NCBI GenBank assembly: GCA_022560615.1
Contig: JADFSR010000032.1
Location: 1 to 49,661, forward strand
Direction of reading: 5' to 3'
From: Gemmatimonadota bacterium
Lineage (GTDB): Bacteria > Gemmatimonadota > Gemmatimonadetes > Longimicrobiales > Gaopeijiaceae
DNA length: 49,661 bases
This document shows, in pieces, positions 9,918-35,807 of the stretch (the first letter of the stretch is position 1; each line of letters starts with the position of its first letter). A program made the translations under genes and the position numbers. The notes below the pieces were generated by a model that was given only the letters and a program-made list of their open reading frames with translations, was not told the origin of the DNA and did not search any database.

Positions 9918-10156
9918 GCGCGACCCGTGTCCTTCAGATCGCTGAGTAGCCGGTCGTCGAAACGCGGCATGCGAAGTCGAGCGGTGCGTGCCGCGACTCG
10001 GGCCAAAATCACTTCTGCGTCGGTGGCGGAAGAGCGAAGGGAGGCTTCGAGACGAGTAAGAATCTCACCGTTGAGACTGCGATGGTTACGCTTCGCGGCC
10101 TCTTTCAGCGTCTGATACATACCTTCGGGGACTCCTCGCAGCGCCAGGTTCGCCAT
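9914..10156 (-). CDS. FitA-like ribbon-helix-helix antitoxin
   Basis: 80 residues from the ATG at 10156, with GAGG six to seven bases upstream. The N-terminus MANLALRGVPEGMYQTLKEA followed by NHRSLNGEILTRLEASL is the FitA/Arc-type ribbon-helix-helix DNA-binding domain. The rest is a helical and then extended tail ending near FDDRLLSDLKD, typical of the segment that blocks the PIN active site. It is the first gene of a two-gene operon with the PIN toxin. An AT-rich region with repeated ATGATA directly upstream is the probable operator. Confidence 0.87.
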   Translation of the reverse strand: MANLALRGVPEGMYQTLKEAAKRNHRSLNGEILTRLEASLRSSATDAEVILARVAARTARLRMPRFDDRLLSDLKDTGRA

Positions 10157-10170
10157 TCTCGACCTCAATA

Positions 10171-10200
10171 TGCTATCGTTATGATAGTAATATGATACAC
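10171..10200 (-). promoter_or_regulatory. AT-rich promoter/operator of fitAB-like operon
   Basis: This 30-base stretch is strikingly AT-rich for the region and contains ATGATA at 10181 and 10192 plus the related CTATCG at 10173. It lies just upstream of the antitoxin start. Repeated half-sites like these are typical of ribbon-helix-helix autoregulation. Confidence 0.4.
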
Positions 10201-10312
10201 ATGAAGGCCGTCCAGATGAAGATCTCCGGGATGAAAGATCTCCGAGATATGGGGCTCCTACATGCTCGTATAGGGCCAACCCTTTCTTTCGGCTCGCCCG
10301 CCGTCGGCCTGC

Positions 10313-11323
10313 CTACTCGACTGAATGCCGCAACGCCGGAAACACCTTCGAGACCTTCCCCAGCACGTAGTCCCCGTACGTGCCCTCGAAATCGTGCACG
10401 CTTGCGTGGTCCCAGCGTTTGTCCGCGTCGTTTGCCGGAAGCGTTACGCCGCTCAAGTCGATCGGTCTCACGTGCGCATCGAATCCAGGGTCGAAGAAGA
10501 ACGGAAACGACAGGCGCCCTCGCCCGGAGACGTTCAGCACGCGGTGAGGCGTGGAGCGATAGAGCCCGCGGGTCAGGCGGTCGAGCATGTCCCCGATGTT
10601 GCATACGAAGGAGTTCGCTACGGGTCGTGCGTCGATCCAACGGGACTCGGTTCTTACCTGGAGACCGCCCACGTCGTCTTGCCTGAGGATCGTGAGCACG
10701 CCGTAGTCGGTGTGCTCGCCCACGCCCCACTGCTGCTCGCGAGCCGGTACGGGTGGGGCGGGGGGGTAGTGGAAGATCCGGAACAGCGTGAGCGGATCAG
10801 CCATGTACCCGGCGCGGAAGTAGTCGGGCTCCAGAGCGAGGCTCATGGCGATGCCCCGCATGAGTGCATGACCCAGGTCGGTCAGCGCCGCCATGTACTC
10901 CAGGATCGTGTCCCTGAAGCCGGGGAGTCCCGACGGGAACAGATTCGCTCCGTGGAGCGGAACGCCGGCCCGCACTCGCCGATCGTCGTCACCGAGCTCG
11001 GCGCCGAAGTAGAGCCCCTCCTTGAGGTCCGGCCTGCCCGACGTGAGCTCGCCGCCCACGGGGAAGTATCCGCGCCATGCATTGCCCGCGAGCTCCATCC
11101 GGATTTCGAGCTTCGTCTCGGGATCTTGCGCGAAAAAGCTGTGGGCGAGCTCGTCCAGCCGGCGCTGAAGGTCCTCGCTCACACCGTGCCCCACGACGTA
11201 GAAGAAGCCCTCGAGCCGGCACGCCTCGCCCATGGCGGAGCTCACGGCTCCCTCGTCGCCCACGCCGGTGACCAGTGGCGCGACGTCGATGATGGGGACC
11301 TGGAACGAGCTACGGTACTTCAT
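10313..11323 (-). CDS. isopenicillin-N-synthase-like 2-oxoglutarate/Fe(II) oxygenase
   Basis: 336 residues from the ATG at 11323, where the family opening FQVPIIDVAPL follows directly; a longer frame to 11443 adds only Arg/Pro-rich residues. The N-terminal DIOX_N part includes GFFYVVGHGV and the C-terminal jelly roll has the iron ligands H-T-D (VGEHTDYGVLTILRQDD) and STPHRVL. The RLSFPFFFDP segment supplies the Arg-x-Ser that binds 2-oxoglutarate. Family members hydroxylate or oxidise small organic molecules in the cytoplasm; the substrate is unknown. It has no signal peptide, unusual among its neighbours, and stands alone. Confidence 0.9.
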   Translation of the reverse strand: MKYRSSFQVPIIDVAPLVTGVGDEGAVSSAMGEACRLEGFFYVVGHGVSEDLQRRLDELAHSFFAQDPETKLEIRMELAGNAWRGYFPVGGELTSGRPDLKEGLYFGAELGDDDRRVRAGVPLHGANLFPSGLPGFRDTILEYMAALTDLGHALMRGIAMSLALEPDYFRAGYMADPLTLFRIFHYPPAPPVPAREQQWGVGEHTDYGVLTILRQDDVGGLQVRTESRWIDARPVANSFVCNIGDMLDRLTRGLYRSTPHRVLNVSGRGRLSFPFFFDPGFDAHVRPIDLSGVTLPANDADKRWDHASVHDFEGTYGDYVLGKVSKVFPALRHSVE

Positions 11324-11467
11324 CCTGCACGGTAGAGCGGGCTTGGGGGCGAGAGCAAGGCGCTCGCGACTGACGGTCCACCGGCGCCCGCTTCCTTGTC
11401 TGCCCGGCCCGCGCATCGGATGTTGGCTTCGGTGTGAAAACATCGGTTTGAAACCAACAGGGCCGAC

Positions 11468-11697
11468 ATGAAGAAGAGGAAGCTGACGCTGGCGATGATA
11501 ACGTCGCTGGTCGTGGCACTGAGCTTGGCTGGACGATCCCCGACGACCCGGTCGCCGTGTACGAGTCGGGCCGCCAGCACGACATGCCGCTCGTCGTCGG
11601 CATGAACGGCGACGAGGGCTCGATGTTCACGCGCCGGATGGGGATCGAAGATGTCGCCAGCTTCGAGGCACATATACGCAGCGTGTATCGTTCATGA
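11468..11697 (+). pseudogene. type B carboxylesterase remnant
   Basis: The ATG at 11468 starts a signal-peptide-like stretch (MKKRKLTLAMITSLVVALSLAG). From 11527, in a different frame, comes WTIPDDPVAVYESGRQHDMP followed by LVVGMNGDEGSMF. That is the C-terminal third of carboxylesterase/para-nitrobenzyl esterase proteins around the catalytic Glu region. The catalytic Ser and His regions are absent. A 59-base offset between the two parts shows both deletion and frameshift. The stop overlaps the next start (ATGA). Confidence 0.6.
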
Positions 11698-12044
11698 ACC
11701 GACGCGACTTTTTATCGCTCAAGACCGATCGCGGAAAGGAGATCCTCCACCTCTCCTGCGAGCGGCTCTACATGTGCTGCCTCAACACCGGGTTGACCGG
11801 CGCTGAGCAAGACGAGCGCTTCGACCCCGTGGCCGATGGCGAGCCGCCGGCAGCGCTCGATGAGCGCACGACGCGGCAACTGTTCCACAATCTTGACCGG
11901 GTCCTCCGGGACGTGGATGTCCTGCGCGTCCTGGACCGCGAGTGGCTGTCCAACGAGGAGTTCAGCCTCGAGTTCGAGGCTCTTCTGACGTCCTTCCGGG
12001 CGCGCGGTGGGCGAGTGGAATTCGCCGACGCGTTTGCGCACTGA
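11694..12044 (+). CDS. conserved hypothetical protein, 116 aa
   Basis: A soluble, acidic 116-residue protein beginning MNRRDFLSLKTDRGKEIL, with LSCERLYM, a linker rich in Pro/Ala/Asp, then LFHNLDRVLRDVDVLRVLD, EWLSNEEFSLEFEALLTSF and RARGGRVEF. The double arginine near the start recalls a Tat signal but no hydrophobic core follows, so it is not one. I do not recognise a functional family. The alternating strand and helix pattern suggests a small alpha/beta domain. It overlaps the decayed esterase by four bases and may have been the downstream gene of that operon. Confidence 0.65.
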   Translation: MNRRDFLSLKTDRGKEILHLSCERLYMCCLNTGLTGAEQDERFDPVADGEPPAALDERTTRQLFHNLDRVLRDVDVLRVLDREWLSNEEFSLEFEALLTSFRARGGRVEFADAFAH

Positions 12045-18727: not shown

Positions 18728-21700
18728 ATGAAGTCGTCGCGGAGCTTGTTGCTCTTGGTGAGCGCCCTGTCCACGGTGGCCGTCGCCGCGCGCACCACGG
18801 CCCAGAGCCCGGACGCCATTGCGGGTGCCCTGGGCGACCTGGAGTGGCGCCATATCGGACCGGTGAACATGGGAGGTCGCGTTTCGGCCATTCTCGGCGT
18901 TCCCGGCGATCCCAGGACCTTTTGGGTCGGCGGCGCCGACGGTGGCGTTTGGAAGACCAGCAACGGTGGCGTCACGTTCGAGGGGCAGTGGCAGGACGAA
19001 GAAGCGTACTCCGTCGGCGCGCTCGCGCTCGCGCCCTCCGACCGCAACGTCGTCTGGCTCGGCTCTGGAGAAGGGGATCCGCGGAACTCGGTGTCGTACG
19101 GGCTCGGCGTGTGGCGCTCGACCGACGGCGGCGCCAACTGGTCGCATCTCGGGCTCGAGGACACGGAGCGCATCAAGAGGATCGTCGTCGACCCGAGGGA
19201 CCCGGACGTCGCGCTCGTGTGCGCGATGGGGCACCAATGGGGTCCCAATGCCCAACGAGGTGTCTTCAAGACCACCGACGGCGGCCAGAACTGGACCCAC
19301 GTGCTCTTCGTCGACGAAGACACGGGCTGCTCGGACATGGACATCGACCTGTCGAATCCGCGCAATGTGTACGCCGGTATGTGGACGTTCCGGCGTCGCC
19401 CGTGGCGCTTCGACGACGGAGGCAAGGAGACGGCTCTGTACGTGTCGCGCGACGCGGGGGACACGTGGCGCAAGGTGACCACCACGCCGGACGAGCCCAT
19501 GGCTCGAATCGGGATCAGCGTCGCACAGTCCCGGCCGAACATCGTCTATCTCATCACCGAGTACCCGACGGCGGGATCGCTCTTCCGATCGGAGGACTAC
19601 GGCGAGACGTGGACGATGATCAACGACGACAAGAACACGATCAACTTCCGCCCGTTCTATTACTCCGACGTGTTCGTCGACCCGAGTGATCACAACACGC
19701 TGTTCACGCTCTCCGGGGGCATGGCGAAGTCCGTCGACGGCGGGCGCACCTTCCGGCGTATCGCCCAGGGTGTGCACGGCGATCACCAGTCCTTCTGGAT
19801 CGATCCGGAGGACGGCGAGCACATTCTGTCCGGCAGCGACGGCGGAATGCAGGTGTCGAACGACGGCGGGGCGAACTTCCACATCTTTCGCAATGTCAGC
19901 CTGGCGCAGTTCTATCACGTGGCCGTCGACGACCGAGACCCCTACTACGTGTGCGGCGGACTGCAGGACAACGGCAACTGGTGTGGGCCGTCGCAGATGA
20001 ACGAGAACGCGGGCATCGTGCCGGGCGCGTGGTACACGGTGAGCGGTGGCGACGGCTTCCATACGGTCCCGGTTCCCGGGCGGCCGAATCTGGTGTACTC
20101 CAACGCGCAGGGCGGCTACTTCCGCATCACCGACACGGACTCGGGCCAGATCCGGTCCATCGAGCCGTTCCCGCTCATGATCGGCTCACAGGGCCAGGGC
20201 ATGTTCCAGGCGCGGTACCGGTTCAACTGGGACGCGCCGATTCACATCTCCCCCCACGACCCCGGAACAGTGTACTGGGGTGGCAACGTACTCTTCAGAA
20301 GCCGGGACTACGGGCACAGCTGGGACATCATCAGCCCCGACCTCACCACCGACGATCCCGAGAAGCAGCTCGACTCGGGCGGTGAGATCTACAACGACAA
20401 CACCGCGGCCGAATTCCACACCACGATCCTGACCATCGCCGAGTCCGAAGTGGAGGCGGGTGTGATCTGGGTGGGGACCGACGACGGCAACGTCCAGATC
20501 ACACGGGACAACGGTGCCTCGTGGACCAACGTTCGAGACCGCGTGCCTGGACTGCCGGCCGAGACCTGGATCGGCAACATCGAGGCCTCCCCCACGGAGG
20601 CGGGCACCGCGTTCATGGCGGTGGACAACCACAGGCTCGACGATTTCACGCCGCACCTCTACGAGACCACCGACTATGGTCGGAGTTGGCGTGATCTCTC
20701 CGCGGGGCTGCCCCAGGACGACTACGTGAAGGTCGTTCGTCAGCACCCGTCGAACCCCAACCTGCTCTTCGTGGGCATGGACCGCGGTCTCTACGGTTCA
20801 TGGGACCGCGGTGAGCACTGGGTCGACATCCGCGGAAACATGCCGCGCGTGTCGGTGCGGGGGATCAAGATCCAGCGCCAGTACAACGACCTGGTCGTTG
20901 GCACGCACGGTCGGGGCGCGTGGATTCTGGACGACATTCAGCCGATGGTCGAGATGGCCGAAGCGCTCCGGAGCGACGCACACATGTTCGATATCCGCAA
21001 CGCCACAGAGTGGGAAACGTGGGGCAGGGGAAGCAGCCTCGGACAGAGCTTGTTCACGGGTGACAATCCCCAGCCGGGCGCGTGGATCCACTTCTACTTG
21101 TCGGACGACGTGGCGGCGTCCCTCCCCCGAGCCGGTGTGACCGTGCGCATCACGGACCCGAGCGGCCAACTCGTGCAGGAGGTCCCCCATCGAGAGGCGC
21201 GGGCAGGCATCAACCGGGCCGTGTGGAATCTCTCGTGGACCGGCGCCGAGCCGATTCCCGGACAGCAGGGCGGCGGCGGCCGTGGCGGCGGCTTCTTCGG
21301 TGGTGGCGGGGGACCTCCCGCGGTTCCCGGTGCTTACACCGCCACGATCGAGGTCGGCGGACGTGAGCTCTCGAAGGACTTCGTGCTGCGAGGCGATCCG
21401 AACGTCGCGGCTTCTCAAGCCGTGTACACCGAGCGCTTCACCGCAGCCATGAGGGTCCGTGATCTGGAGACTCAGCTCAACCAGATGGTCGGTACGATGG
21501 TGGACCTCAACGGCCAGATCGGCGGGCTTCTCGAGTCGATCGACGGGAAGGACCTGTCGAACGAAGCGCAGATCCGTGAGACGGCAGGACAGGCGCAGGG
21601 AGCGCTGACGGGACTCGAGGCCGAGGTACGTCGGCCGGTGGGGTCGATGAACTACCGCGACTGGCCGCGCCTGATCGAGCAGTTGCGGAGGATTTCCGGC

Positions 21701-21913: not shown

Positions 21914-23638
21914 CTACTGCCGGCCACCTCCCGTCCACCCCGGACCCCGGACCACCCGGCCCGGGGTCGCCTCGGTATGCTCACCGTCACGCAGTACCTG
22001 CCCGCCGTTCACGAACACATGCACGACGCCGGTCGAGTACTGGTGCGGGTCCTCGAACGTCGCGTGGTCGATGATGGTGGCGGGGTCGAAGACAACGACG
22101 TCCGCGTAGTAGCCCTCGGCGAGCAGGCCCCGATCCGCGATGCCCAGGTTCGTGGTCGGAAGCGACGTGAGCTTACGGATCGCTTCTTCCAGCGGGATGA
22201 CGCCTTCTTCGCGCACGTATTTTCCGAGCAGCCGCGCGAAGTTTCCGTAGGCTCTGGGGTGCGTGCTCACGTCGGTGAAGGGAGGCTCGGGCGCCATCGA
22301 ACCCGCGTCGGAATCGAAGGAAACCCACGGCAGAGCGATCTGCCGCTTCACGTTGTCCTCGGACATCAGGAAGTACACGACCTGGACGCGGCTCCCGTCC
22401 TCGACCACGAGGTCCATCGCGGTCTCTTGGGCTGATGTGCCCCGTTCCGCCGCCACCTCCCCCAGCGTGCGGCCGGTGTAGTTGCGCAGGCCTGGATTCC
22501 GGAACCCGACGAGCAGCGTGCCTTCGGGAGTGGCGCCCTGCATGAGGTTCTCCCAATCGTCCTGCTGCGCGACCATCTCGGCCGCGACGCGGGCTCGGAC
22601 GCCAGGGTCGCGAAGGCGCTCAGCCCACGCGTCGTATCCGCCCTCCTGTACCCACGGGGGCATCGCCGCATCGAGTCCGGTCGATCCTGCGGTGTAGTTG
22701 TACATGTCGGCCGTGATGCGCAGGCCCTCGGCGCGCGCTGACTCGACCATCTCGATGACCTGGTCGAGCTTACCCCAGTTCCGCTCGCCGGCTGCCTTCA
22801 GGTGGTAGATCTCTGCCGGCAGCCCTGCTTCGCGTGAGATGCCGATCAATTCCTCGACGGCCTCGAGCAGCCGGTTGCCCTCGCTGCGCATGTGGGAGAT
22901 GTACATGCCACCGTACTCGGCGGCGACGGAGGAGATCGCGACGAGCTCGTCCGTATTGGCGTAGAACGCCGGCGCATAGATGAGCGAGGAGCCGATGCCC
23001 ATGGCGCCCTCGCGCATGGCCGCATGTACGAGCTGCCGCATGCGTTCGAGCTCTTCCTCATTCGGAGGTCGGTCCGCGTAGCCCAGCTCGTGGATGCGCG
23101 CGGTGGTCGCGCCGAGGAACGAAGCGACGTTGGTCGAGATTCCCTTGGTCTCCAGGAACTCGAGGTACTCACCCAGCGTCGTCCACGGCACCTCGACCGC
23201 GCCCCCGAGCAGCTCGGCCGCGCGCTGCTCGGAGCCGACGAAGTCCACGAACCTCTCCAGCCACTCTTCTTTCATGGCGTCGTTCATCGGCCCCATGGAG
23301 TTGCCCTCACCGAACACTTCGAGGGTGACACCCTGGCGGAGGTCGCCCTGCGAACGACCATCGACGATGAGGGACTCGGTAGCCCAAGAGAGCATGTTCA
23401 CGAAGCCCGGCGAGACCGCCAAACCGGACGCGTCGACCACCCTCTCAGCGGTCGCGCCGGCGAGGTCTCCGACCGCCACGATGCGGTCTCCGTCGATCGC
23501 CACGTCCCCTATGAACGATGCCGCACCGGAGCCGTCGTAGATGGTTCCCCCGCTGATGAGGAGATCGTAGGTGGCAGCGTCGGTGCACGCCGCGGTGGCT
23601 GCGAGCACCGTGGCGATGGACAGCATCCGTCTGATCAT
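21914..23638 (-). CDS. D-aminoacylase-like amidohydrolase lipoprotein, altered metal site
   Basis: 574 residues from the ATG at 23638; lipobox ATAAC near residue 18. The start LLISGGTIYDGSGAASFIGD and the end LGIADRGLLAEGYYADVVVFDP are those of N-acyl-D-amino-acid deacylases of the amidohydrolase-3 group. The strand-1 metal motif, normally P-G-F-x-D-x-H-x-H, reads PGFVNMLSWATES (around 23384-23410), so both histidines are missing. Downstream elements (FGEGNSMGP, ISHMRSEGNRL, EIYHLKAAG, DVSTHPRAYGNFARLLG) are kept. A subfamily with MLSW at this place exists, so it may be a real mono-metal or non-catalytic variant rather than damage. Envelope location would let it act on D-amino acid derivatives from cell wall turnover. 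Confidence 0.83.
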   Translation of the reverse strand: MIRRMLSIATVLAATAACTDAATYDLLISGGTIYDGSGAASFIGDVAIDGDRIVAVGDLAGATAERVVDASGLAVSPGFVNMLSWATESLIVDGRSQGDLRQGVTLEVFGEGNSMGPMNDAMKEEWLERFVDFVGSEQRAAELLGGAVEVPWTTLGEYLEFLETKGISTNVASFLGATTARIHELGYADRPPNEEELERMRQLVHAAMREGAMGIGSSLIYAPAFYANTDELVAISSVAAEYGGMYISHMRSEGNRLLEAVEELIGISREAGLPAEIYHLKAAGERNWGKLDQVIEMVESARAEGLRITADMYNYTAGSTGLDAAMPPWVQEGGYDAWAERLRDPGVRARVAAEMVAQQDDWENLMQGATPEGTLLVGFRNPGLRNYTGRTLGEVAAERGTSAQETAMDLVVEDGSRVQVVYFLMSEDNVKRQIALPWVSFDSDAGSMAPEPPFTDVSTHPRAYGNFARLLGKYVREEGVIPLEEAIRKLTSLPTTNLGIADRGLLAEGYYADVVVFDPATIIDHATFEDPHQYSTGVVHVFVNGGQVLRDGEHTEATPGRVVRGPGWTGGGRQ

Positions 23639-25382: not shown

Positions 25383-25979
25383 ATGAACCGCCTGACCCGT
25401 CCGCTGACCGTCCTGTCCGTTCTCGCCATGGCGGCGTCGCTTTCTGCGCCCCTGGCGGAGCCGATCGCGGCGCAGTCGACACCCGACGGCTTCAAGACGG
25501 AGATCCAACGGCAGTTCGGAGCGTCGGCCAGGAAGGCGGTCATGCTCGCCGAAGCGATGCCGGCCGAGAAGTACGGCTGGAGTCCCGGAGAAGGAGTGGC
25601 ATCCGTCGCGAGGGTCTACATGCACATAGCCCGCTACAACTACATGTACCTGGAGCAGAGCATGGGCATCGAATCGCCGATGGGTCAGGACGCGTACATG
25701 CGTTGGGAGGACGACGTGACCGCGCGCTTCCAGGCGAAGACGGCGTCCGCCGCGGACAAGGAATGGATCGTCGGGGTCCTCAGCGCCTCGATGGACCACG
25801 TGCGCGACAACCTCGAGTCGATGTCTGAGTCGGACTTTGCAATTTCCACCCGGCTGTACGGCCGGCAGGTCCAGAAATGGGCGGTCATGCTGCAGCTCGT
25901 CGCGCACATGAACGAGCACTTGGGACAGTCGATCGCGTATGCCCGCATGAACGGTGTCGTGCCGCCGTGGTCCAGATAG
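25383..25979 (+). CDS. exported DinB-superfamily protein
   Basis: 198 residues from the ATG at 25383, with GGAG six bases upstream. Signal peptide VLSVLAMAASLSAPLAEPIAAQ. The mature part begins FKTEIQRQFGASARKAVMLA and continues with helices carrying MPAEKYGWSPGEG, VYMHIARYNY and LQLVAHMNEHLGQSIAYAR. That is the four-helix DinB bundle with its metal-binding His positions (H in VYMHIA, H in AHMNEH and the second H). DinB-like proteins often use metal and thiols; exported versions are common in this lineage and unassigned. It overlaps the aldolase start by 13 bases. Confidence 0.82.
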   Translation: MNRLTRPLTVLSVLAMAASLSAPLAEPIAAQSTPDGFKTEIQRQFGASARKAVMLAEAMPAEKYGWSPGEGVASVARVYMHIARYNYMYLEQSMGIESPMGQDAYMRWEDDVTARFQAKTASAADKEWIVGVLSASMDHVRDNLESMSESDFAISTRLYGRQVQKWAVMLQLVAHMNEHLGQSIAYARMNGVVPPWSR

Positions 25980-26872
25980 AGGATCGCCGGCGCTACGCGC
26001 TGGCCCTCGTCTCGCTCTTCGCACTGAGCGCTTGCGGCGGAGAGTCGTCGGAAGCCGCGACGGACGGTACTTCTGCCACAACGCCGCCGGTCACCTCGGC
26101 GGCTCAATCCGTCGCGATCCGGCTCTGGGCGGAGGGTCAGCCGGCCTTCGGCATCTTCGTGCCAAGTGAGCGCCCGCGCGGCGAGCGTGGGCCGGCCGGT
26201 GAGCGCCCGCCCGCGCTATACACCACCGAGGGCGGCACCGAGCTCGGCCGCAACGACTTGCTGGACTACCTGTTCCTGAACCTCGAGGGGTCGTACGACG
26301 CCGAGGCTATATCCGCTATCTCCAGCGGGCTCGGCAACGAGGGGACTTCTGAGAGGAAGACCTTGCTCGTGCGCATTCCGCCGATCTCGGCGGACGGCCC
26401 CGAGGCGGCGCGGGCGCGCGTCGTCGAGGCGCTCGAGCGCGGCGCGGACGGCGTCGTATTGCCACACGTGCGCAGTGCCGAAGAAGCGGCGCTCGCGGTG
26501 AGCTTCTTCACGGACGCGGGAGCCGACGTGTGGTCGCCCACGAACCCGACGGGGACCACGATCGCGATGATCATGATCGAAGATCCTGGCGCGTTGGCGG
26601 AGGTTCGGGCGATAGCGGATACGCCAGGGTACAGCGTTCTCGCCTGTGGCATCGGCAGTCTGACCCGTGCGCTCGACGGCGACCGGGAAGCCGCCGAGGC
26701 CGGGAACCTGGAGGTGCTCGGGCACGCGACACGGATCGGTATGCCGGACATGATTACCGCCAACAGCGACGACGTAGCACGCCGGATCGAGGAGGGATTC
26801 CTGGGACTGCTCATGAACGGACCCCAGGCCGACGAGGCGATCAGGGTCGGGCGGGCGGCGGTGGGGCGCTAG
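25967..26872 (+). CDS. HpcH/HpaI aldolase-family lipoprotein
   Basis: 301 residues from the GTG at 25967, 13 bases inside the DinB gene. The first residues form a lipoprotein signal (LALVSLFALSAC). The mature protein has the TIM-barrel signature of HpcH/HpaI aldolases and citrate-lyase beta relatives: GADGVVLPHVRSAEEA, MIMIEDPGALAEVRAIADTP and a final helix before GR. Normally these are cytoplasmic enzymes cleaving 2-keto-3-deoxy acids with a divalent metal, so an exported lipid-anchored member is unusual. The last 23 codons are repeated at 33538, where they end against the aminotransferase gene. Confidence 0.8.
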   Translation: MVQIEDRRRYALALVSLFALSACGGESSEAATDGTSATTPPVTSAAQSVAIRLWAEGQPAFGIFVPSERPRGERGPAGERPPALYTTEGGTELGRNDLLDYLFLNLEGSYDAEAISAISSGLGNEGTSERKTLLVRIPPISADGPEAARARVVEALERGADGVVLPHVRSAEEAALAVSFFTDAGADVWSPTNPTGTTIAMIMIEDPGALAEVRAIADTPGYSVLACGIGSLTRALDGDREAAEAGNLEVLGHATRIGMPDMITANSDDVARRIEEGFLGLLMNGPQADEAIRVGRAAVGR

Positions 26873-26921
26873 CCCGTTGCCGCGTCCACCCCGATCCGGA
26901 GCGCCTCCACGATCCGGGGAA
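26803..26921 (+). repeat. direct repeat L (119 bp), left end of inserted block
   Basis: Matches 33538-33656 with five mismatches, all within the aldolase tail; the last 49 bases are identical. It holds the aldolase C-terminus and stop plus, on the other strand, the last 16 codons of the aminotransferase (PRIVEALRIGVDAATG). This shows the two genes were once adjacent tail to tail. Confidence 0.85.
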
Positions 26922-26992
26922 TGGCTGAGGATCCCTCCCAGCCGTTCTAGCCGGAAGTCGCGCGGGCGCGCACCGACGGCCGGGTACAGAGG

Positions 26993-28729
26993 CTACCGAT
27001 CGAACCTGTTCAGTAACCGCTGAAACCGCGGATAATCGCGCAGGGGATCGAAGCGCGCGCCGTGATGAATGTAGACCAGCGCACCGTTGCGCTGCTCGAA
27101 GGCCAATTCCAATTGGTCGATGGCTTCCTCGTATTCACCAAGACCGATATGAACCAGAGCGAGGTCGGACGCGGCTGCCAGGTCGCTCTGGCGGAGCTCC
27201 TCCCGTAGGCGACGGGCCTCATCGAGGCTGCCCATCCGGGCATGGATGTACGCGAGTTGCGAGACATACAGCGGAGCCCGCCCGGAAAGCTCCACCGCGG
27301 TTCGGCTCAGGTCCAGGGCACGCTGTAACTCGCCTTGCTCCACATAGGCCCAGGCCGGCCAGGCCACCAGCACGGGGTCACCCCTGTCCAATGCCAGGGC
27401 CTTGTCGAAGGCTTCGATGGCCGCGTCGAAATCCCGCGCCAGCAAGTAGATCTGGCCCAGCGCGTGGTTCGCGGAAGTGTTGAGCGGGTCGAGTTCGATG
27501 GCCTTGAGAGTAGGTGGCAGAGCATCCTCGAAGCGCCCCGATTCTCCCAACAGCCATGAGCTGTGAATCAGGGCCTTGACGCTGCCCGGGTTCAGCTCCA
27601 GCGCTCTTTGTAGCTCCAGTTCGGCCGCCGCCCGATCGAACTCCAGGTAATACAGCACCCCGGCCATCGCCACGTGCGCCTCGGCCAGTTGCTCGTCCAG
27701 CTCCACCGCCCTCTGCGCGGCGGCTTTCGATTCCTCGTAGACGTCCAGTGGCAGGACGTAATTGAAGAAAGCGCTGTACTGGAGGCACAGCGCTAGCTCC
27801 GCTTGAGCCGGGGCATAGGCCGGATCGAGCCGGGAGGCCTCGCGCATCAGGTCGATACCCTGTTGCATCTCCTGTGGACTCCAGTTTTCACACAGGTAAC
27901 GCCCTTGCAGGTAGCGTTCATATGCAGCCGGGCTCACCGTCCGGCTCGCGCTGAGTCGTGACGCTTCTTCCGGCGTCACCTCGACCCGGATCTGTGCCAC
28001 GATCTCCCGCGCCACCTCGCCGTAGAGCGCCAGGATATCGGTCAATTCGCGATCGTAGTTCTCGGCCCACAGGTGGCGGTCGGTGCCGGCCTCGATCAAT
28101 TGGGCAGTGACCCGCACGGTACTGCCGGCACGCAGCACGGAGCCCGTGACCACGGCGTCGACGCCCAGTTCACGTGCGATCTGCCGCAGCGATTTCTCGG
28201 AATCCTTGTAGGCCATGGCCGAGATGCGCGAGATCACGCTCAGGGCTTCGACCTTGGAAAGCTCGGTGATCAGCGCCTCGTGCATGCCGGACACGAAATA
28301 GGCCTGGGCCGGGTCGTTGGTCAGATCATCCAGAGGCAGCACCACGATCGCGTCGATCCGGGACGGCGATCCCGCACTCCCGGATCCGCCGTCCCAGTCA
28401 CGCGAGTACAGGGCGTAGCCTGCGGCGGTGAGCAGCGCCAGCGCGATGAGGGCATCGAGCTTGTATGACCGTGAACCCTGTGTTGCAGTTTCCCCTGGCC
28501 CGTCTTCACGGCGCAAGCCCTCCGGGGTCAATTGGAAGGCCCAGGCCAGCACCAGGGCGACCGGAAAGCCCAGCACCAGCAGGACGAATATCAGGCTGCC
28601 GGTCCATTCAGGCAGGGGCAGGAAATCCATGAACACGTCCGCCACCTGCAACACCAGCCAGCTGACTACGAGGTACAGCGCGGGGACCCGGTACACCTTT
28701 CGGCGTTTCAACTCATCGAAGAATGACAT
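26993..28729 (-). CDS. membrane TolB/FlgO-like plus TPR protein
   Basis: 578 residues from the ATG at 28729, with AAGGA upstream. It starts MSFFDELKRRKVYRVPALYL, the opening of a family common in gammaproteobacteria where it is often mislabelled adenylate cyclase. Two helices (about 15-33 and 43-64) and a third near 95 are followed by a TolB/FlgO-like domain (IDAIVVLPLDDLTNDPAQAY to HLWAENYDREL, about 125-235). From about 265 to the end are TPR repeats (for example AAAELELQRALELNPGSVKA). No cyclase or kinase domain is attached. It lies in the inserted block and may have been acquired with it. Confidence 0.82.
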   Translation of the reverse strand: MSFFDELKRRKVYRVPALYLVVSWLVLQVADVFMDFLPLPEWTGSLIFVLLVLGFPVALVLAWAFQLTPEGLRREDGPGETATQGSRSYKLDALIALALLTAAGYALYSRDWDGGSGSAGSPSRIDAIVVLPLDDLTNDPAQAYFVSGMHEALITELSKVEALSVISRISAMAYKDSEKSLRQIARELGVDAVVTGSVLRAGSTVRVTAQLIEAGTDRHLWAENYDRELTDILALYGEVAREIVAQIRVEVTPEEASRLSASRTVSPAAYERYLQGRYLCENWSPQEMQQGIDLMREASRLDPAYAPAQAELALCLQYSAFFNYVLPLDVYEESKAAAQRAVELDEQLAEAHVAMAGVLYYLEFDRAAAELELQRALELNPGSVKALIHSSWLLGESGRFEDALPPTLKAIELDPLNTSANHALGQIYLLARDFDAAIEAFDKALALDRGDPVLVAWPAWAYVEQGELQRALDLSRTAVELSGRAPLYVSQLAYIHARMGSLDEARRLREELRQSDLAAASDLALVHIGLGEYEEAIDQLELAFEQRNGALVYIHHGARFDPLRDYPRFQRLLNRFDR

Positions 28730-28818
28730 CCAGATCCTTGTCGCTCGGCGGCTGGGCGATCAAACCTTTTCATTGCAGCCTAGACGTTACAGGCGCCAGA
28801 CCGTATTAGCCAAGTTCA

Positions 28819-28842
28819 CGGAAGACCCTTAGCTGTCTTCCG
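28819..28842 (-). terminator. hairpin at end of cupredoxin-like gene
   Basis: CGGAAGAC at 28819-28826 pairs with GTCTTCCG at 28835-28842 around an eight-base loop spanning the stop codon of the gene ending at 28829. No T tract. It may separate this gene from the TPR gene downstream. Confidence 0.35.
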
Positions 28843-29779
28843 GCCCAATGCTGAAGAGCTTCAACATGCCCTTATCTGAGGAGCCCGGGACCTCGGAGAC
28901 CCACGCGTAATCGCCACTCTCGAGCACCACGGTGAAGTAGCCGGTGGTGCCGGCCGGCATCTCATTGCTGCCGCCCAGGAACACGGCGGGAGCGGGGGTC
29001 TGGAGGCCCATGGGCTGCCTCCAGTCCATCCACCGCTCCAGCTCCGCGATGTCCACGTCGTCGGTGATGCGTACCAGATGGATGTCATGTTCGACGAAAT
29101 TCTCGTGGACGGTCTGATCAACGAAGCGCACGGCCACCGTATGCTCCCCGGGAACCAGCTTTCCCTCCACCTCGATCCCACCTGCTGTGGAGATCTCGAT
29201 CTGAATGGTAGAGCTGGGCTCCACGGCTTCCGACGACTCGTCGGTGACCGTGAACTCGTGAACCATACCGTTGATCGAGGGGTCAGGGTTGTAGCTGTGG
29301 AAGACGCCGTTGGTCTTCACATAGCACTCCAACAGGTAGGTGCCTGGCTCCAGAAAGACCGTGGCCTGGCTGGTGCGGCCTGGCGACGTGAGTCCGGGGC
29401 CACCCAGGAAGACGATCTCGCCGAACCAGGCGGGGAGATCTCCGAATCTCCGGAGCGCAGCGTCGACCTCGCCTGCGCTCAGAAGATCCAAACCGTCCTG
29501 GAACACCGGGGCGACCTCTGCCTGCTGCGACTCGATCCCCTGACCATCAGGGAGCCGCTCCACCACCGCGAAGTGGATCATCGGGGTTTCGTTCCTGAAG
29601 CGGAACGTCGTCCATCCTGATGGGATCTCGTCGGGCGCAACCAATGTCATGCCGCGAGCGATGACATCGACGACACCCGGGGTGTCCGCCGGGTCGAGAG
29701 ATTCCGATGGGCTGTCGTCGCGCGGAGCGCATGCTCCGGCCAATAAGAGCAGGGCGGTCGCGAGTCCGATTCGCTTCAT
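28829..29779 (-). CDS. lipoprotein with two cupredoxin-like domains
   Basis: 316 residues from the ATG at 29779, with GGAGG eight bases upstream. Signal peptide with lipobox LAGAC. The mature part has two similar beta-sandwich halves. The first has PSGWTTFRFRNETPMIHFAV and EPGTYLLECYVKTNGVFHSY; the second has GEHTVAVRFVDQTVHENFVE, HDIHLVRI and TGYFTVVLESGDYAWVSEVP. The layout, a beta sandwich with His near the end of one strand and Cys in a C-terminal loop, recalls cupredoxins. The Cys-x-His-Met copper set is complete in neither half, so binding is not certain. Possibly an envelope protein sensing or binding small ligands. It sits upstream of the TPR gene on the same strand. Confidence 0.65.
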   Translation of the reverse strand: MKRIGLATALLLLAGACAPRDDSPSESLDPADTPGVVDVIARGMTLVAPDEIPSGWTTFRFRNETPMIHFAVVERLPDGQGIESQQAEVAPVFQDGLDLLSAGEVDAALRRFGDLPAWFGEIVFLGGPGLTSPGRTSQATVFLEPGTYLLECYVKTNGVFHSYNPDPSINGMVHEFTVTDESSEAVEPSSTIQIEISTAGGIEVEGKLVPGEHTVAVRFVDQTVHENFVEHDIHLVRITDDVDIAELERWMDWRQPMGLQTPAPAVFLGGSNEMPAGTTGYFTVVLESGDYAWVSEVPGSSDKGMLKLFSIGPEDS

Positions 29780-30060
29780 CCAGGCATCCTCCGGTGTTGA
29801 TCATTCCCACAGGGCGGCAATCGATATGGGAGGAGGGATAAGGAATTCAACCGCGGTACGAAAGCGGAAGGGATGGCACCACCTGTCATCCGCCAGTTCC
29901 GGTGGCGTGGAGCTTCGCTAGCTTCGCGACCCCTTCCTCGAGATCGGACTTTGCCGTGCGTAGGACCCAGGTCCCGCACGAAGAACTCCTTCCTCACCGG
30001 TTCCGTCGCGCGCCCCCGATGTCTCAGCGCCGGTTGCTACTCGACTCCGGGATCGACCTT

Positions 30061-30133
30061 TCCGGAGCGCCTCCACGATCCGGGGAACCTGCGCCTCCGG
30101 CGTGGCGCACAGCGCCACCCTCACCGCACCCTC
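30061..30133 (-). repeat. direct repeat T (73 bp), aminotransferase tail fragment
   Basis: Identical over all 73 bases to 33630-33702, the C-terminal coding part of the intact aminotransferase (RVALCATPEAQVPRIVEALR). It overlaps the L repeat over a 27-base core. It has no gene around it and marks a third boundary inside the inserted block. Confidence 0.85.
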
Positions 30134-30137
30134 ACGT

Positions 30138-30203
30138 CGCGTGCTCCGCTACTTCCGCACGCACGGCCTACTCGACGGTGACTTACTCCTCGATCAGACC
30201 TGA
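30138..30203 (+). pseudogene. possible IS91-type transposase fragment
   Basis: Directly after the T repeat ends, 21 codons read RVLRYFRTHGLLDGD and so on to a TGA. The pattern R-R-V-L-R-x-F-x-x-x-G-L-L-x-x-D is found in the middle of IS91/IS801-type transposases. It is too short for more than a suggestion. Confidence 0.3.
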
Positions 30204-30243
30204 GCGCCACCTTCGACCCCACGCTTGCCGATCCCGGCCCTTT

Positions 30244-30489
30244 CTAGTCCGTCGCTTCCAGCCTCTTGGGGTCGTAGGTCTCGCCGCTGCGCCACAGCGC
30301 CAGCATGATCGAGCCGATCTGTCGCGCGATGGTCTGCTTCGCAAGGTTCGGTTTCGTGCCGCCGTCCAACAGGCTCTGGTAGTGGTCGCCGCACCCTTGA
30401 ACACGCGCTTCAGCGTGTGGTTGAAGTTCCGGTTCAGGCGCCGCGTCTGCTGTACCGGTCTCCTCACTCACCGCCCGCTCGCTTCCCAC
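30244..30489 (-). pseudogene. IS110-family transposase C-terminal remnant
   Basis: On the minus strand one frame reads LNRNFNHTLKRVFKGAATT, then a one-base shift gives HYQSLLDGGTKPNLAKQTIA followed by RQIGSIMLALWRSGETYDP and KRLEATD before a stop at 30244. This is the C-terminal end of IS110/IS1111-type DEDD transposases (L-K-x-V-F-K-G-A-A, T-K-P-N-L-A-K, x-W-x-x-x-x-x-Y-D-P). The catalytic N-terminal part is absent, so the element is dead. Confidence 0.7.
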
Positions 30490-30876
30490 ACCCAGTCCGA
30501 CGAGGTCCGCGTCACCACGCGAGCCCGCAATACGACCAGAAATTGCCGCGGCTCTGGAATCGATATGGCGTCGCCTCGGCGAGCATCCTCTTCTCGGCCT
30601 TCACCCGCAGAGCCGCGAGCGCGAGGTGAACGCCTCTTCACTTTTGGGGCTGCTTTGCTGCTGATCCAAACCAGTAGCGGACGCCGTGCCTCCCATGATG
30701 CCTATCCATGCAAGGGCAGGTGAGAGCCGACGGGGGCGGGAGGGACGGCACCCTCGGGTTCAGGTGAGAGCAGCAGGAGCAACAGGGACCGACGAGGTAA
30801 GGTGAGGGCGTACTATCAGTTTGACCATCAGTCGTGATACTCGCGCCCCTCACATCTTTCCCGCATCTTGCGTTTC

Positions 30877-30938
30877 ATGCCGACCCCATGAACCAACTGA
30901 ACGCAGCCCTCGAACGCGTGGTATCACGTGGGGCCTAG
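30877..30938 (+). pseudogene. Ser/Thr kinase N-terminal remnant (2 of 4)
   Basis: After ATG-CC the frame GAC-CCC-ATG-AAC reads DPMNQLNAALERVVSRGA and stops at 30936. It equals the kinase leader D-P-x-x-x-L-N-A-A-L-E with one base missing just after the ATG. The bases before the ATG (CCGCATCTT) also match those before the remnant at 957, suggesting a shared 5' leader. It is followed at once by the TPR gene at 30993. Confidence 0.5.
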
Positions 30939-30992
30939 TGTCCTTTCGTGGCTCTCGAAGGATTGCAGCATGTTGGTGGACAGGTAGGAAGC

Positions 30993-33281
30993 ATGGAACC
31001 TTCGCCGCATAGTTTCTTCCGCAGCCTCCGCGAGCGGAAGATCGTCCAGTGGCTCGTAGTTTACCTCACGGGCTCGTGGGCAACGTTGGAGGTTGTCGCC
31101 ACGCTCGCGGAAACGGTTCAGTTCCTGGAATCCGTCCAAGCGATGCTGCCGATTCTGATCGCACTGGGGATCCCAGTGGTGCTGGTGCTCGCCTGGTACC
31201 ACGGCGAGAAGGGACGACAGCGCTTTAGCGGGGCCGAGCTGGTGATTCTGGCGACGCTTCTGGCTGGCCTTGGCGGTGTATTCACGTTGTTCAGCGGCGG
31301 CCGCGCGTACCGGCCACGGGCTGGCACCGCCACGGTACTCGGCGCGGACTTCGAGCCCGCGCCGGCCATCGCCGTGCTGCCGAGTGTCGCCGCAGGTGCG
31401 GGTGCCGAAGACATTGGCGAAGGCATCGTGAGCGTGCTTTCGTCTGGTCTGGACGCCGTGTCGGGGTGGCGGGCCGTGAGCCCCCGAACCGTGCGGGCGC
31501 GGTGGGCCGAGCGTGTCCCGGAGGGCGGTACGGCCGATGAGTCCACAGCTCTCGAGATCGCCGTGGCGACCGGTGCGACGTACGCCGTCCTCCCGACTAC
31601 GACCGTGCTGGGGAGTGTGGTACGCGTCTCCGTCGACATCTACGATCTCAGAAATCCGGGAGCGGCCGCGTGGTCGATCGAGCGCTCTGGGAACCCCGGA
31701 GATCTTCTCCCGCTGGCGGATGGCCTGGCAGTGGAGATCCTCGGTGCGGTCCTCCAGGGGGAAGGGCAGATTCCCGCCGTCGACCTCTCGCGCACCACGA
31801 GTGAATCACCCGAGGCACTGCGCGCGTTCTTGCAGGGCGAGGTGCTCTACCGCGAATACCGTCTGGAAGACGCGCGAGACGCCTTCAACCTCGCGCTCGA
31901 TCACGACCCGACCTTCGCCCGCGCACACTATCGGCTGATGGAAGTCCACGGCTGGGGCGCGACGATGTCAGATCCACTTGTCCTGCGACATCAGCGTCTC
32001 GCGCGGGAGAACATCGGCCGCCTCACCAACCGCGAGGCTTTGGTGATTCAGGGGCTCACGGAGCCCGATCTGCGAGACCGGTTTCGACTGCTCGAGGAAG
32101 CCGTCGCGAGGTACCCCGACGACGCGACCGCTTGGTACTGGCTGGGCGAGCAGCGCTTACACAACGTTGGGGGGCTCGCGAACGCTCTGGAGCTCGAAGA
32201 GCCGTTTCTGACCGCGATCCAGCTCGATCCCGGACGGGCCGCGCTATATCCGCATGCGGTGTTACTCGCATTCACGGAACGCGCGGACAGTGCTCTGGCG
32301 ACGGAGCTGGTGAGCGCCTTTGTGGACGCGTCATCAGGTGTGACCGGCCCGCCCATGCCCGACATGGACCCGCGGGGTGCACAACTCGCTTTGGATCTCG
32401 CGTTCGGAGACGAGACGGCGCGTGAAGCGGCCTGGATCCAAGTCGATGCCGAGGTCGGTGGAGCCACGGCGGCGCTCTTGATCGTGGGCTACCTCTACCA
32501 TCCTCATCACTATGAGAAAGCCCGGCGGGTTGCTGCCGTTCTGGGGGATCGCCCGATGCCCACCCTCGACCTGTTCGACGCGGACCTCCAATGGCGTGGC
32601 CACGTTCGCGAGGGCCTCTCTAACCTAGATGACGTCTTGACGGATCGAGAGGTCATCTCACTGCACGACGCCTTCGTCATGGGACTTGCCTCCGCCATCC
32701 CCCGGGATCTGCTCCTCGAACACTTCGGACCAGCAGAGATTCACGAGGGTGCCGGGCAGAGACGGCTGGCCATGGCCGGCATGTGGGCGGCGGACGATGG
32801 ACGGTGGGAAGACCACCGACAGGTCATCGAGCTTCTGACGGAGGCCTCTGAGGTGAGCGACGCGCCGGACAACGTCGATCGATTGGGGCTCGATGTAGTC
32901 GAGGCTTACGGGACTTTGCGACGTGGCGAACCGGCTTCGGCGCTACCCGCGCTCGTCGAGTTGGTGACGTCCGGACGCCGCGACACGCGCAGCACGATGT
33001 GGGCGCTGGGAGAGGCCTACACCGCGCTCGGCCGATGGGCGGATGCCGAGCGGGTGTTTAGGACGTCCGCCTGGGCCGGCCTCCTACGGCCGTTTGCGGC
33101 TTATCCCATGGTCCGGCTCAGGCTCGCACACGTCCTTGAAGCCCAGAACAGGGTGGCTGAGGCGGTCGAGGCATACGCGTACTTTGTGGAGCACTGGGCG
33201 ACTGCCGACCCCGAGCTACAACCGATCGTCCAGGATGCCCGCGACGCGATCGCCAGGCTGAGCGGAGGGGCTGGCCGGTAG
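30993..33281 (+). CDS. membrane TolB-like plus TPR protein
   Basis: 762 residues from the ATG at 30993, with AGGAAG upstream; an upstream ATG at 30948 adds 15 atypical residues. The start SFFRSLRERKIVQWLVVYL leads into two or three membrane helices (about 19-37, 51-70, 80-99). A TolB/FlgO-like domain follows (about 120-235, with PAIAVLPSVAAGAGAEDIGE and DIYDLRNPGAAAWS), then a long helical TPR region (ALRAFLQGEVLYREYRLEDA, ALDHDPTFARAHYRLMEVHG). The same layout is usually the C-terminal half of kinase-TPR proteins in this phylum. Kinase-start remnants flank it on both sides, so it may be the surviving tail of such a gene that gained its own membrane start. Confidence 0.8.
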   Translation: MEPSPHSFFRSLRERKIVQWLVVYLTGSWATLEVVATLAETVQFLESVQAMLPILIALGIPVVLVLAWYHGEKGRQRFSGAELVILATLLAGLGGVFTLFSGGRAYRPRAGTATVLGADFEPAPAIAVLPSVAAGAGAEDIGEGIVSVLSSGLDAVSGWRAVSPRTVRARWAERVPEGGTADESTALEIAVATGATYAVLPTTTVLGSVVRVSVDIYDLRNPGAAAWSIERSGNPGDLLPLADGLAVEILGAVLQGEGQIPAVDLSRTTSESPEALRAFLQGEVLYREYRLEDARDAFNLALDHDPTFARAHYRLMEVHGWGATMSDPLVLRHQRLARENIGRLTNREALVIQGLTEPDLRDRFRLLEEAVARYPDDATAWYWLGEQRLHNVGGLANALELEEPFLTAIQLDPGRAALYPHAVLLAFTERADSALATELVSAFVDASSGVTGPPMPDMDPRGAQLALDLAFGDETAREAAWIQVDAEVGGATAALLIVGYLYHPHHYEKARRVAAVLGDRPMPTLDLFDADLQWRGHVREGLSNLDDVLTDREVISLHDAFVMGLASAIPRDLLLEHFGPAEIHEGAGQRRLAMAGMWAADDGRWEDHRQVIELLTEASEVSDAPDNVDRLGLDVVEAYGTLRRGEPASALPALVELVTSGRRDTRSTMWALGEAYTALGRWADAERVFRTSAWAGLLRPFAAYPMVRLRLAHVLEAQNRVAEAVEAYAYFVEHWATADPELQPIVQDARDAIARLSGGAGR

Positions 33282-33293
33282 GGCTCCAGATTC

Positions 33294-33443
33294 ATGTCCG
33301 ATCCCCTCACCCACCTAGACGCGGCCCTCGAGAGCAGCTACCGCATCGAGCGTGAGCTCGGCGAAGGGGCTATTTCCGTCCGTCCTGTTTCAAAACTCAG
33401 CCCGGCAATCGGCCGATCGACGGGGTTCCAGAACCCGCCCTAG
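33294..33443 (+). pseudogene. Ser/Thr kinase N-terminal remnant (3 of 4)
   Basis: The best preserved of the kinase starts: MSDPLTHLDAALESSYRIER followed by ELGEGA, i.e. the leader and the beginning of the glycine-rich ATP loop (G-E-G-x). Right after GEGA the reading changes to unrelated residues and a TAG at 33441. The break lies inside the P-loop, so no kinase activity is possible. It directly follows the TPR gene on the same strand. Confidence 0.7.
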
Positions 33444-33537
33444 GGCCTGTCGTTCGACAGGAACGGTTGGGAGACATCCTCAGCCGTTACTATCGAGAAG
33501 CCGCCTGATCCGATCGATCGAATATTGGGACAGGACG

Positions 33538-33656
33538 GGGACTGCTCATGAACGGCCCCCGCGCCGACGAGGCGATCAGGGTCGGGCGGGCGGTGGCGGG
33601 GCGCTAGCCCGTTGCCGCGTCCACCCCGATCCGGAGCGCCTCCACGATCCGGGGAA
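33538..33656 (+). repeat. direct repeat R (119 bp), right end of inserted block
   Basis: Second copy of the aldolase tail, ending NGPRADEAIRVGRAVAGR and stop, with the aminotransferase 3' end on the other strand. The stop codons overlap as CTAG at 33604-33607. The aldolase part is only a fragment here and differs from the intact gene by five bases. Confidence 0.85.
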
Positions 33657-34842
33657 CCTGCGCCTCCGGCGTGGCGCACAGCGCCACCCTCACCGCACCC
33701 TCCATGGGCACGACGTAGACTCCCTCGGCTCGCATCGCCTCCGCGGTCTTCTCGCCGTCGGGCGTGAACACCGCTACGAAGAAACCGCCTTCGTAGCGCG
33801 GAACCCTCAGGCCGGCTTCCCGGGCGCCCTCATTGAAAGCGCCAACGCGGCGGCGGAGCATGTCGATCAGCGCATCGCGCTCTGCGTCCGCCCGCGCCTT
33901 GAGGTCCGGGTCCGTGAGTAGGTCGGTGACCGCGAGCTGACCGAGGTGGTTGCAGTTGGACCAGGTTGCGCGACACGAGTATGAAAGAGCGTTCGTCAGG
34001 CGCTCCCGCTCGGCTGCGTCCTGGTGCATCGCGATGAGCGCGCCTATTCGCGCGCCGTATTGGGCGAACGTTTTGGACGCGGTCCACGCTACGAGCACCG
34101 TGCTCGTCTCCAGCATGGTCCCGATGGCGTGCAACCAGTGGTCCGACGCAGGATCCGCGAAGCGTAGGTACGCGCAGTCGAGCAGGGTGGCGACGGGGGC
34201 TCGCTCGCCCGCGAAGCGGACGACTTCCGCGACAGCGGCCCACTCGGACTCGTCCAGCGAGTACCCCGTCGGGTTGTGGCAGGGGAAGTTGAGCAACAGC
34301 AGGACACGGCCCTGCCGTTCGATGTGGCGATCGATACCTATGGCCAGCGCGTCGAGATCGAGGCGCCCGTCTTCACCGAACATGCGGAAGGTGTCGACGT
34401 CTCGCCCCGCGTGCGTGGTGATCACACCGTAGGGCCCCCAGAAGTAGCTGGGCGTCAGCGCGCTCTGACCGGGTTCCAGGAAGTTGACGACCGCGTGGTG
34501 GATCGCGCCCGTACCGCCCGGAGTAGCGGCAGAAATGGCCTGGGCGGCGAGGGGGCCATCGTCGAAGAGATCCGAGATCGTCGCCCCCAGGAACGGCGCT
34601 GAACCTGCGATCGGGGCGTACCCCGCGGCGCGCTCCAACGGAACGCGCAAGAGCGCCTCGGACACGCTCGGCATGACCGCCAGCTTGCACGCGTCGTCCA
34701 TCAGCACGCCAAGGGTGGCATCCAGGATCGACTCGCCTGCGGCGCTTCGCTTCGCTGCCTCCGCGTTGAGCGAGAAGATGGGGTCGTCGCCGGGTCTGTT
34801 CTGTGCGCTCTGAATGAGCGCGCTTGCGATGGACACCGTCAC
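33604..34842 (-). CDS. class I/II PLP-dependent aminotransferase
   Basis: 412 residues from the GTG at 34842, which overlaps the stop of the upstream metallo-beta-lactamase gene (GTGA). PLP-binding features in order: PGGTGAIHHAVVNFLEPGQ, FPCHNPTGYSLDE (Asn), LLDCAYLRF (Asp), WTASKTFAQYGARIG (Schiff-base Lys and following Arg) and AVRVALCATPE (substrate carboxylate Arg). The overall pattern is that of aspartate/aromatic-type aminotransferases with a cytoplasmic location. It is the second gene after the lipoprotein MBL. Its 3' end is the site of the threefold duplication. Confidence 0.88.
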   Translation of the reverse strand: MTVSIASALIQSAQNRPGDDPIFSLNAEAAKRSAAGESILDATLGVLMDDACKLAVMPSVSEALLRVPLERAAGYAPIAGSAPFLGATISDLFDDGPLAAQAISAATPGGTGAIHHAVVNFLEPGQSALTPSYFWGPYGVITTHAGRDVDTFRMFGEDGRLDLDALAIGIDRHIERQGRVLLLLNFPCHNPTGYSLDESEWAAVAEVVRFAGERAPVATLLDCAYLRFADPASDHWLHAIGTMLETSTVLVAWTASKTFAQYGARIGALIAMHQDAAERERLTNALSYSCRATWSNCNHLGQLAVTDLLTDPDLKARADAERDALIDMLRRRVGAFNEGAREAGLRVPRYEGGFFVAVFTPDGEKTAEAMRAEGVYVVPMEGAVRVALCATPEAQVPRIVEALRIGVDAATG

Positions 34843-35807
34843 TCGGACCCCCCCGGTAGCTCCCCGTCCAGCTCCGCATACACCTGTTGGATCGCTCGGG
34901 ACTTTTGACTCGAGCGCAACGACCACGTCTCGATCTCCCCCATAACCGCTTCTGCCTGAGCATCCTCCAGGCTCAACCCCTGAGCGTGCAGTCGTGTGGC
35001 CTCAGCGATGACTGTGACCAGCGCCTGCCGGTACGTCTCGAGCTCCTCTTCGAGCACGTCCGGCGAATCGACGAAACCGTGCCCCGGCACGTAATAGTCG
35101 ACATCCATGGCCTGTGCACGCTCGATCATCGCGACCCATTCCGACGGGAACGCCGTGCGCATCGCCGGGAAGACTCGGTGCAGATACGCCTCGCTCATGA
35201 AGAGGATCTTCTCGGCGGGCAGATAGACGGAGAGGTCGCCTCCGGTGTGGGCCCTGCCGAGGAAGAGGATTTCGATCTCCTGGTCACCGAGCGTGATGGT
35301 CGTCGTCTCATCGTGCACGATTTCCGTGGCCAGCACGACGGGCGGGGCGTCCTCGCGACGGTTCGGGTTGTTCGCGCTCGAAGCGAGTGTGGCGGCGGAC
35401 GTCGGATGGGCAAGGAAGACCGCGTCACTGGGGAACGCAGAGTTTCCATTGGTGTGATCGCCGTGGTCCGAGCAGATCACGACATGCGTGATCGGCTGGT
35501 CGGTGATTTCGGCGATGTGGTCGATCAAGCGTTGCGTCTCTTCGACACTCCCCTGACCGTCCGCCACCAGAACACCTTCGCTGGTGACCACGAACATGCT
35601 CACGGTGGTGAAGCGCTCGTCCCCAGCCGACCGGAGCTGCTCGTAGGAGTAGACGTTGGCAGCGAGCTCTCGGATCCGAGGGAAGTCCTCGTCCGTATAG
35701 CCTCGAGCATCCGGGTCGGCGGTGCGGACGAGCGGGGCTGGCTCCGAGCAGCCTCCCATGATGAGCATCAACGCGAGTGCCGCAGACCGACGACGGTGGT
35801 TCGCCAT
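34839..35807 (-). CDS. metallo-beta-lactamase-fold lipoprotein
   Basis: 322 residues from the ATG at 35807; lipobox IMGGC near residue 18. MBL-fold motifs: VLVADGQGS, ICSDHGDHTNGN at the H-x-H-x-D-H position, FLGRAHTGGDLSVYLPAEKI, and VPGHG. The first histidine of the metal motif is replaced by Ser (S-D-H-G-D-H), while the Asp-His pair and the later His residues remain. This matches a known branch with S-x-H-x-D-H and may hold metal differently. Similar exported proteins sit near PQQ or amidohydrolase genes. It is coupled to the aminotransferase and lies 27 bases after the monooxygenase-like gene. Confidence 0.82.
   Translation of the reverse strand: MANHRRRSAALALMLIMGGCSEPAPLVRTADPDARGYTDEDFPRIRELAANVYSYEQLRSAGDERFTTVSMFVVTSEGVLVADGQGSVEETQRLIDHIAEITDQPITHVVICSDHGDHTNGNSAFPSDAVFLAHPTSAATLASSANNPNRREDAPPVVLATEIVHDETTTITLGDQEIEILFLGRAHTGGDLSVYLPAEKILFMSEAYLHRVFPAMRTAFPSEWVAMIERAQAMDVDYYVPGHGFVDSPDVLEEELETYRQALVTVIAEATRLHAQGLSLEDAQAEAVMGEIETWSLRSSQKSRAIQQVYAELDGELPGGSE

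Follow-up and report, generated by a model that had tools for sequence, protein, structure and literature searches.

The window, by which we mean the whole analysed stretch of 49,661 nucleotides, is an entire contig (C32) of a draft genome (G000; 4.5 Mb in 105 contigs). It carries a convergent gene pair separated by 6.7 kb of inserted DNA. The left member, a HpcH/HpaI (PF03328) aldolase-like lipoprotein gene on the forward strand (25877-26872; 331 aa as read here), is intact, as is the right member, a class I/II aminotransferase gene (PF00155) on the reverse strand (33604-34926). The initial annotation had described both genes as unharmed, with pieces of their 3' ends repeated around the inserted DNA and no integrase left there. 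Our analysis agreed on each point: both reading frames are open, and no recombinase or integrase gene was found between 26922 and 33537.

Base-by-base alignment reproduced these repeats, coordinates included, and gave two direct-repeat families in the window and no more. Repeat L (26803-26921, forward strand), within which the aldolase-like gene ends, consists of about 70 bp of the aldolase tail and then 49 bp of the aminotransferase end, a relic that breaks off at 26921; it matches 33538-33656 over 119 bp, with 114 of the 119 positions identical (96%). Repeat M (30061-30133, forward strand) is 100% identical to 33630-33702 over 73 bp. Their counterparts together make up repeat R (33538-33702, forward strand), where a relic of the aldolase tail continues into the aminotransferase end. 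Chance is ruled out for both matches (E-values of 1e-50 and 1e-31). The previously noted 27-bp core is present exactly in all three copies (26895-26921, 30061-30087 and 33630-33656). This core is a part of the aminotransferase coding region and simply the place where L and M overlap; in M it is followed by a further 46 bp of the aminotransferase end, likewise a relic. A genome-wide search found no other copies of the repeats or of the core.

When the part of L that precedes the core (26803-26894, 92 bp) is joined to M (30061-30133, 73 bp), the composite aligns with R over 165 bp, 160 of them identical. Every one of the five mismatches (33556, 33561, 33562, 33594 and 33597) falls in the aldolase tail, i.e., five in about 69 positions vs. 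none in the remaining 96, in line with the earlier remark that L and R differ in this tail only. Under even decay such a placement would occur with a probability of about 1.3% ((69/165) to the fifth power), a value that comes from a small sample (n = 5). The simplest reading is a pair of nested duplications, one of 165 bp around 30134-33537 and one of 27 bp around 26922-30060, the latter inside the left copy of the former. The idea of two insertions was thus upheld, in a nested form, by the alignment of L and M with R.

The segment bounded by the exact 27-bp repeats, insert 1 (26922-30060; 3139 bp), is not present at the DNA level in the congener G001. Exactly at its left junction lies an interior fragment of an rve-type IS/MITE (26920-26949, forward strand), which is 100% identical over 30 bp to a sequence in contig C2 of the same genome and 96% identical to one in C23; two bases (AA) are common to the end of the core and this fragment. 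Two genes follow on the reverse strand, one for a TPR membrane protein (26993-28729; 578 aa) and one for a lipoprotein-like product (28829-29779; 316 aa). A DNA match of 84.5% in the genome G143 (29822-28851) was limited to the 316-aa gene; therefore, as far as the sequence tells, insert 1 is itself probably composite. An origin of insert 1 wholly from G143 was rejected, since that gene alone matches there. Copying of the whole insert from elsewhere in the genome was also rejected, as no second copy was found.

Insert 2 (30134-33537; 3404 bp) starts with 44 bp from within an IS91-like transposase gene (30134-30177, forward strand), a fragment that reads RVLRYFRTHGLLD, adjoins M, and is 93% identical to a sequence in G014; the name was given from the peptide, without a Pfam match. 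At the joint 30133/30134 the aminotransferase end and this fragment have about 0-1 base in common. Next comes an IS110-family remnant on the reverse strand (30216-30710), made of a C-terminal part of the transposase with an internal deletion and of an upstream non-coding end (30620-30710); it is 74% identical to a full IS110 gene in contig C89. IS110 elements encode a guide RNA upstream of the transposase. Isolated short copies of the 90-bp end (30620-30710), with no adjoining transposase match, were seen in contigs C2, C23 and C8. The remnant is followed on the forward strand by an intact gene for a TPR membrane protein (30948-33281; 777 aa) and by the start of a serine/threonine-kinase-like gene (33295-33380), named by peptide resemblance without a family match and truncated by a MITE. 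This MITE is complete (33381-33536; 156 bp), with inverted ends GTCCTGTTTCAA and TTGGGACAGGAC, and stops on the right one base short of R. We assign it to an rve-type IS, taking it for a relative of an rve_3 IS that has undergone internal deletion: its inverted ends are common to a transposase-bearing rve_3 + HTH element in C23, and it has no gene of its own. In the related rve-type IS of C23 (L067, 2340-3864) the transposase halves are apparently split by another repetitive sequence.

Overall, the inserted DNA is a patchwork of TPR and lipoprotein genes and of element scraps, and MITE or IS sequence is found at three of the four insert junctions. The MITE/IS sequence at the outer junctions and the IS91-like and IS110 scraps inside had gone unnoticed in the initial annotation. 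One MITE family stands at both outer junctions (26920-26949 and 33381-33536), in opposite orientations. The genome search turned up no more than a few rve-IS/MITE copies; judging by this copy number, chance would hardly have placed the family at the two outer joints.

An ancestral tail-to-tail arrangement with stop codons overlapping as CTAG had been proposed. Such an overlap is seen in the R copy, and the relatives supported the proposal. In the congener G001, whose aldolase-like gene is an 83% identical orthologue, the two genes stand tail to tail about 60 bp apart with no insert, and the DNA identity around this empty site is 81-85%. This is the empty site suggested for related genomes. Among 21 genomes of the family with both genes on one contig, with gaps taken from gene coordinates, the gap was 2-236 bp in 17 and held an insert in four. 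Besides the 6.7 kb of the present window, these were 0.9 kb in G005 (a gene with an AraC-like C-terminus), 0.9 kb in G131 (a lipoprotein-like gene, a different one) and 2.6 kb in G014 (L100, 2241-5305; proB and proA by sequence). The genes in the last three are unrelated to those of the window insert, and none of these three inserts is surrounded by gene-end repeats. G091, from the genus of G014, has a 236-bp gap with an apparent proB relic (L101, 2860-3097).

The boundary had also been called an insertion hot spot, for which the comparison gave weak backing: four of 21 genomes hold an insert, yet in about 40 kb aligned between the window and contig C74 of G001 the two congeners differ by six or more further indels or replacements, each at least 0.5 kb long. 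These included stretches of about 0.6, 2.3 and 1.4 kb specific to G000, two of about 0.8 kb each specific to G001 and a replaced region of 5.7 vs. 6.6 kb. No long flanking repeats were found at these other indels, where the end-to-end match never exceeded 10 bases. Since indels are frequent nearby, a special hot spot is not needed; the aldolase/aminotransferase boundary is permissive, with weak grounds for a special status. A 2.3-kb stretch missing from the congener (9539-11857) contains two small genes (9528-10279) that overlap each other and by eye resemble a VapC-type toxin with its antitoxin.

Imprecise recombination seems to have left an ordinary scar of a known kind here, and the locus does not look like a dedicated insertion site. 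We give a probability of about 0.5 to successive, non-site-specific insertions into the convergent gene pair, through one-sided integration that combines homologous with illegitimate recombination, or through end joining. The process would start from an empty pair of the aldolase-like and aminotransferase genes. Insert 2 would arrive first, on a piece of DNA ending with the MITE and an aldolase tail, which would find its anchor in homology with the overlapping gene ends; its other end would make an illegitimate joint 46 bp beyond the core, inside the aminotransferase end. Such a one-sided integration, whether by homology-facilitated illegitimate recombination or by an equivalent single crossover in which the homology is truncated, would double the stretch between the joints; insert 2 would come to lie between direct repeats of 165 bp, and neither gene would be broken. 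Insert 1 would then enter the left copy with 27 bp doubled. For this step end joining or slippage would be more likely, 27 bp being a short stretch for RecA. We infer the order of events, the anchoring by homology, the donor, the uptake route and the role of the MITE.

Several observations argue for one-sided integration. The nested geometry of the repeats and the empty site in G001 count in its favor, as do the junction partners, which are unrelated scraps (a MITE interior, an IS91-like fragment and a MITE end). The target between the joints is duplicated, with 165 bp around insert 2, as homology-facilitated illegitimate recombination would have it. The confinement of the mismatches to the aldolase tail fits a tail derived from the donor, with the crossover just behind it. 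On the other hand, the aldolase tail is diverged on one side and no donor sequence was found, so a homologous and an illegitimate end are indistinguishable at M. The 27-bp repeat also counts against one-sided integration, being at or below the length that RecA usually needs to pair (for E. coli, PMC2884548 cites about 30 bp). The MITE at both outer junctions suggests recombination between elements as an additional contributor. Also in its favor, genes for Ku (TIGR02772) and ComEC are present, which makes end joining and DNA uptake possible; a role of either protein in these insertions is possible only.

A local rearrangement without any homology anchor, by repeated microhomology-mediated template switching of a fork or broken end or by Ku joining of staggered ends with fill-in, seems to us rather unlikely. 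The variable duplication lengths (27 and 165 bp), the 2-bp overlap (AA) at the left junction, the position of junctions within scraps rather than at element ends and the presence of Ku would all suit it, but it leaves unexplained why the mismatches of the 165-bp repeat all gather near one of its ends, and the inserted kilobases have no second genomic copy that could be a surviving resident template. We consider improbable a MITE-driven rearrangement, in which two rve-IS/MITE copies, inserted about 119 bp apart in inverted orientation or carried by two alleles of this boundary, would have been joined by recombination or a transposase to give A-core/MITE ... MITE/tail-core-B. The low-copy family sitting exactly at the outer left and outer right junctions, in opposite orientation, speaks for it. 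By eye, the window MITE has no matching bases on its two sides, so that its surroundings were probably altered after landing, which agrees with such a history. However, the piece at the left junction comes from the interior of the element and has no terminal repeat, and M would be left unexplained. Target-site duplication by a transposon as the sole cause was rejected, given the lengths of 27 and 165 bp and the three of four joints that are not element ends (33536 alone is).

An assembly artefact, made by joins between strains or by a separate 6.7-kb circle threaded into an A-core-B chromosome, we hold to be quite improbable. The draft consists of 105 contigs, the exact common stretches of about 59 bp (L/R) and 73 bp (M/R) could permit threading of a loop, and the other possible path, A-core-B, is precisely what the congener has as its empty site. 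Yet the insert bears the IS and MITE families of this very genome, the repeats are below ordinary read length, five mismatches separate L from R, and no replication gene that a circle would need was recognised. Most doubtful is the mechanism implied when the gene ends were called attachment-like sites, in which a tyrosine or serine recombinase, later lost, would have integrated islands at the 27-bp core in the aminotransferase 3' end. The direct repeat of exactly matching 27 bp, located in the 3' end of a gene, and the preserved 3' ends speak for it, and att cores of about 27 bp are within the sizes seen. Still, the insert has no recombinase, the second insertion spans 165 bp with different end points, so that the four junctions lie at different positions, the inserts of G005, G131 and G014 at the same boundary have no gene-end repeat, and the core is found nowhere else in the genome. 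An integrase-type genomic island was accordingly rejected for lack of a recombinase, for its unequal repeats and for the lack of reuse in relatives. Gene-3'-end direct repeats around inserted DNA are what the locus has in common with tyrosine-recombinase islands; these three features set it apart from them.

Closest to the favored one-sided integration are the homology-facilitated and single-crossover integrants described in Acinetobacter, Pseudomonas stutzeri, pneumococcus and E. coli (PMC3240628), with one homologous and one illegitimate joint. Of 60 integrants from E. coli conjugation, 56 yielded a PCR product indicative of a duplicated target, and in 14 sequenced ones the duplications were 109-950 bp long (PMC3240628); kilobases were added with a target duplication there as here, where it is 165 bp. 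Unlike those integrants, the present case is a natural event in an uncultured Gemmatimonadota, with donor and experiment lacking, and its 27-bp step is shorter. Successive additions at one boundary are also known from the orphan immunity arrays of the Vibrio cholerae T6SS, for whose stacked immunity genes the same kind of recombination was proposed (PMC5361080), and from orphan Rhs/CDI 3' regions. Those arrays stack whole effector-immunity modules, whereas here the TPR and lipoprotein genes are unrelated and only relics of gene ends are stacked. Short variable segments in bacterial species, 10-18% of which are flanked by repeats mostly shorter than 30 bp (PMC2884548), are similar as insertions or deletions at gene borders; here, in contrast, one repeat has 165 bp and the two repeats are nested.

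At this locus one can follow how new genes enter between two convergent genes with neither harmed, the order of events being legible from the nested duplications and the empty site of a close relative. It also calls for caution, as gene-end repeats are not to be taken for integrase sites. Local duplications were surveyed in 824 kb of G000 (the window included) and in 400 kb of G005. The G000 sample contained others, two of them of gene 3' ends, and the window case is thus not unique in the genome, though 824 kb is too small a sample to call this a system. A habit of the whole lineage, in which MITE/IS scraps and gene ends would seed repeated one-sided insertions and so stack duplicated gene 3' ends, appears very improbable to us. 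In contig C2 (79268-81388), a class-III aminotransferase-like gene has its 3' end in two copies (79624-79885 and 81056-81317; 262 bp, 95%) beside duplicated fragments of an IS91-like transposase; a gene for a group II intron-type reverse transcriptase (81692-82645) comes after it. In contig C23, a gene 3' end (19309-19452 and 22291-22434; 145 bp, 88%) stands on either side of two genes, a layout that resembles that of the window.
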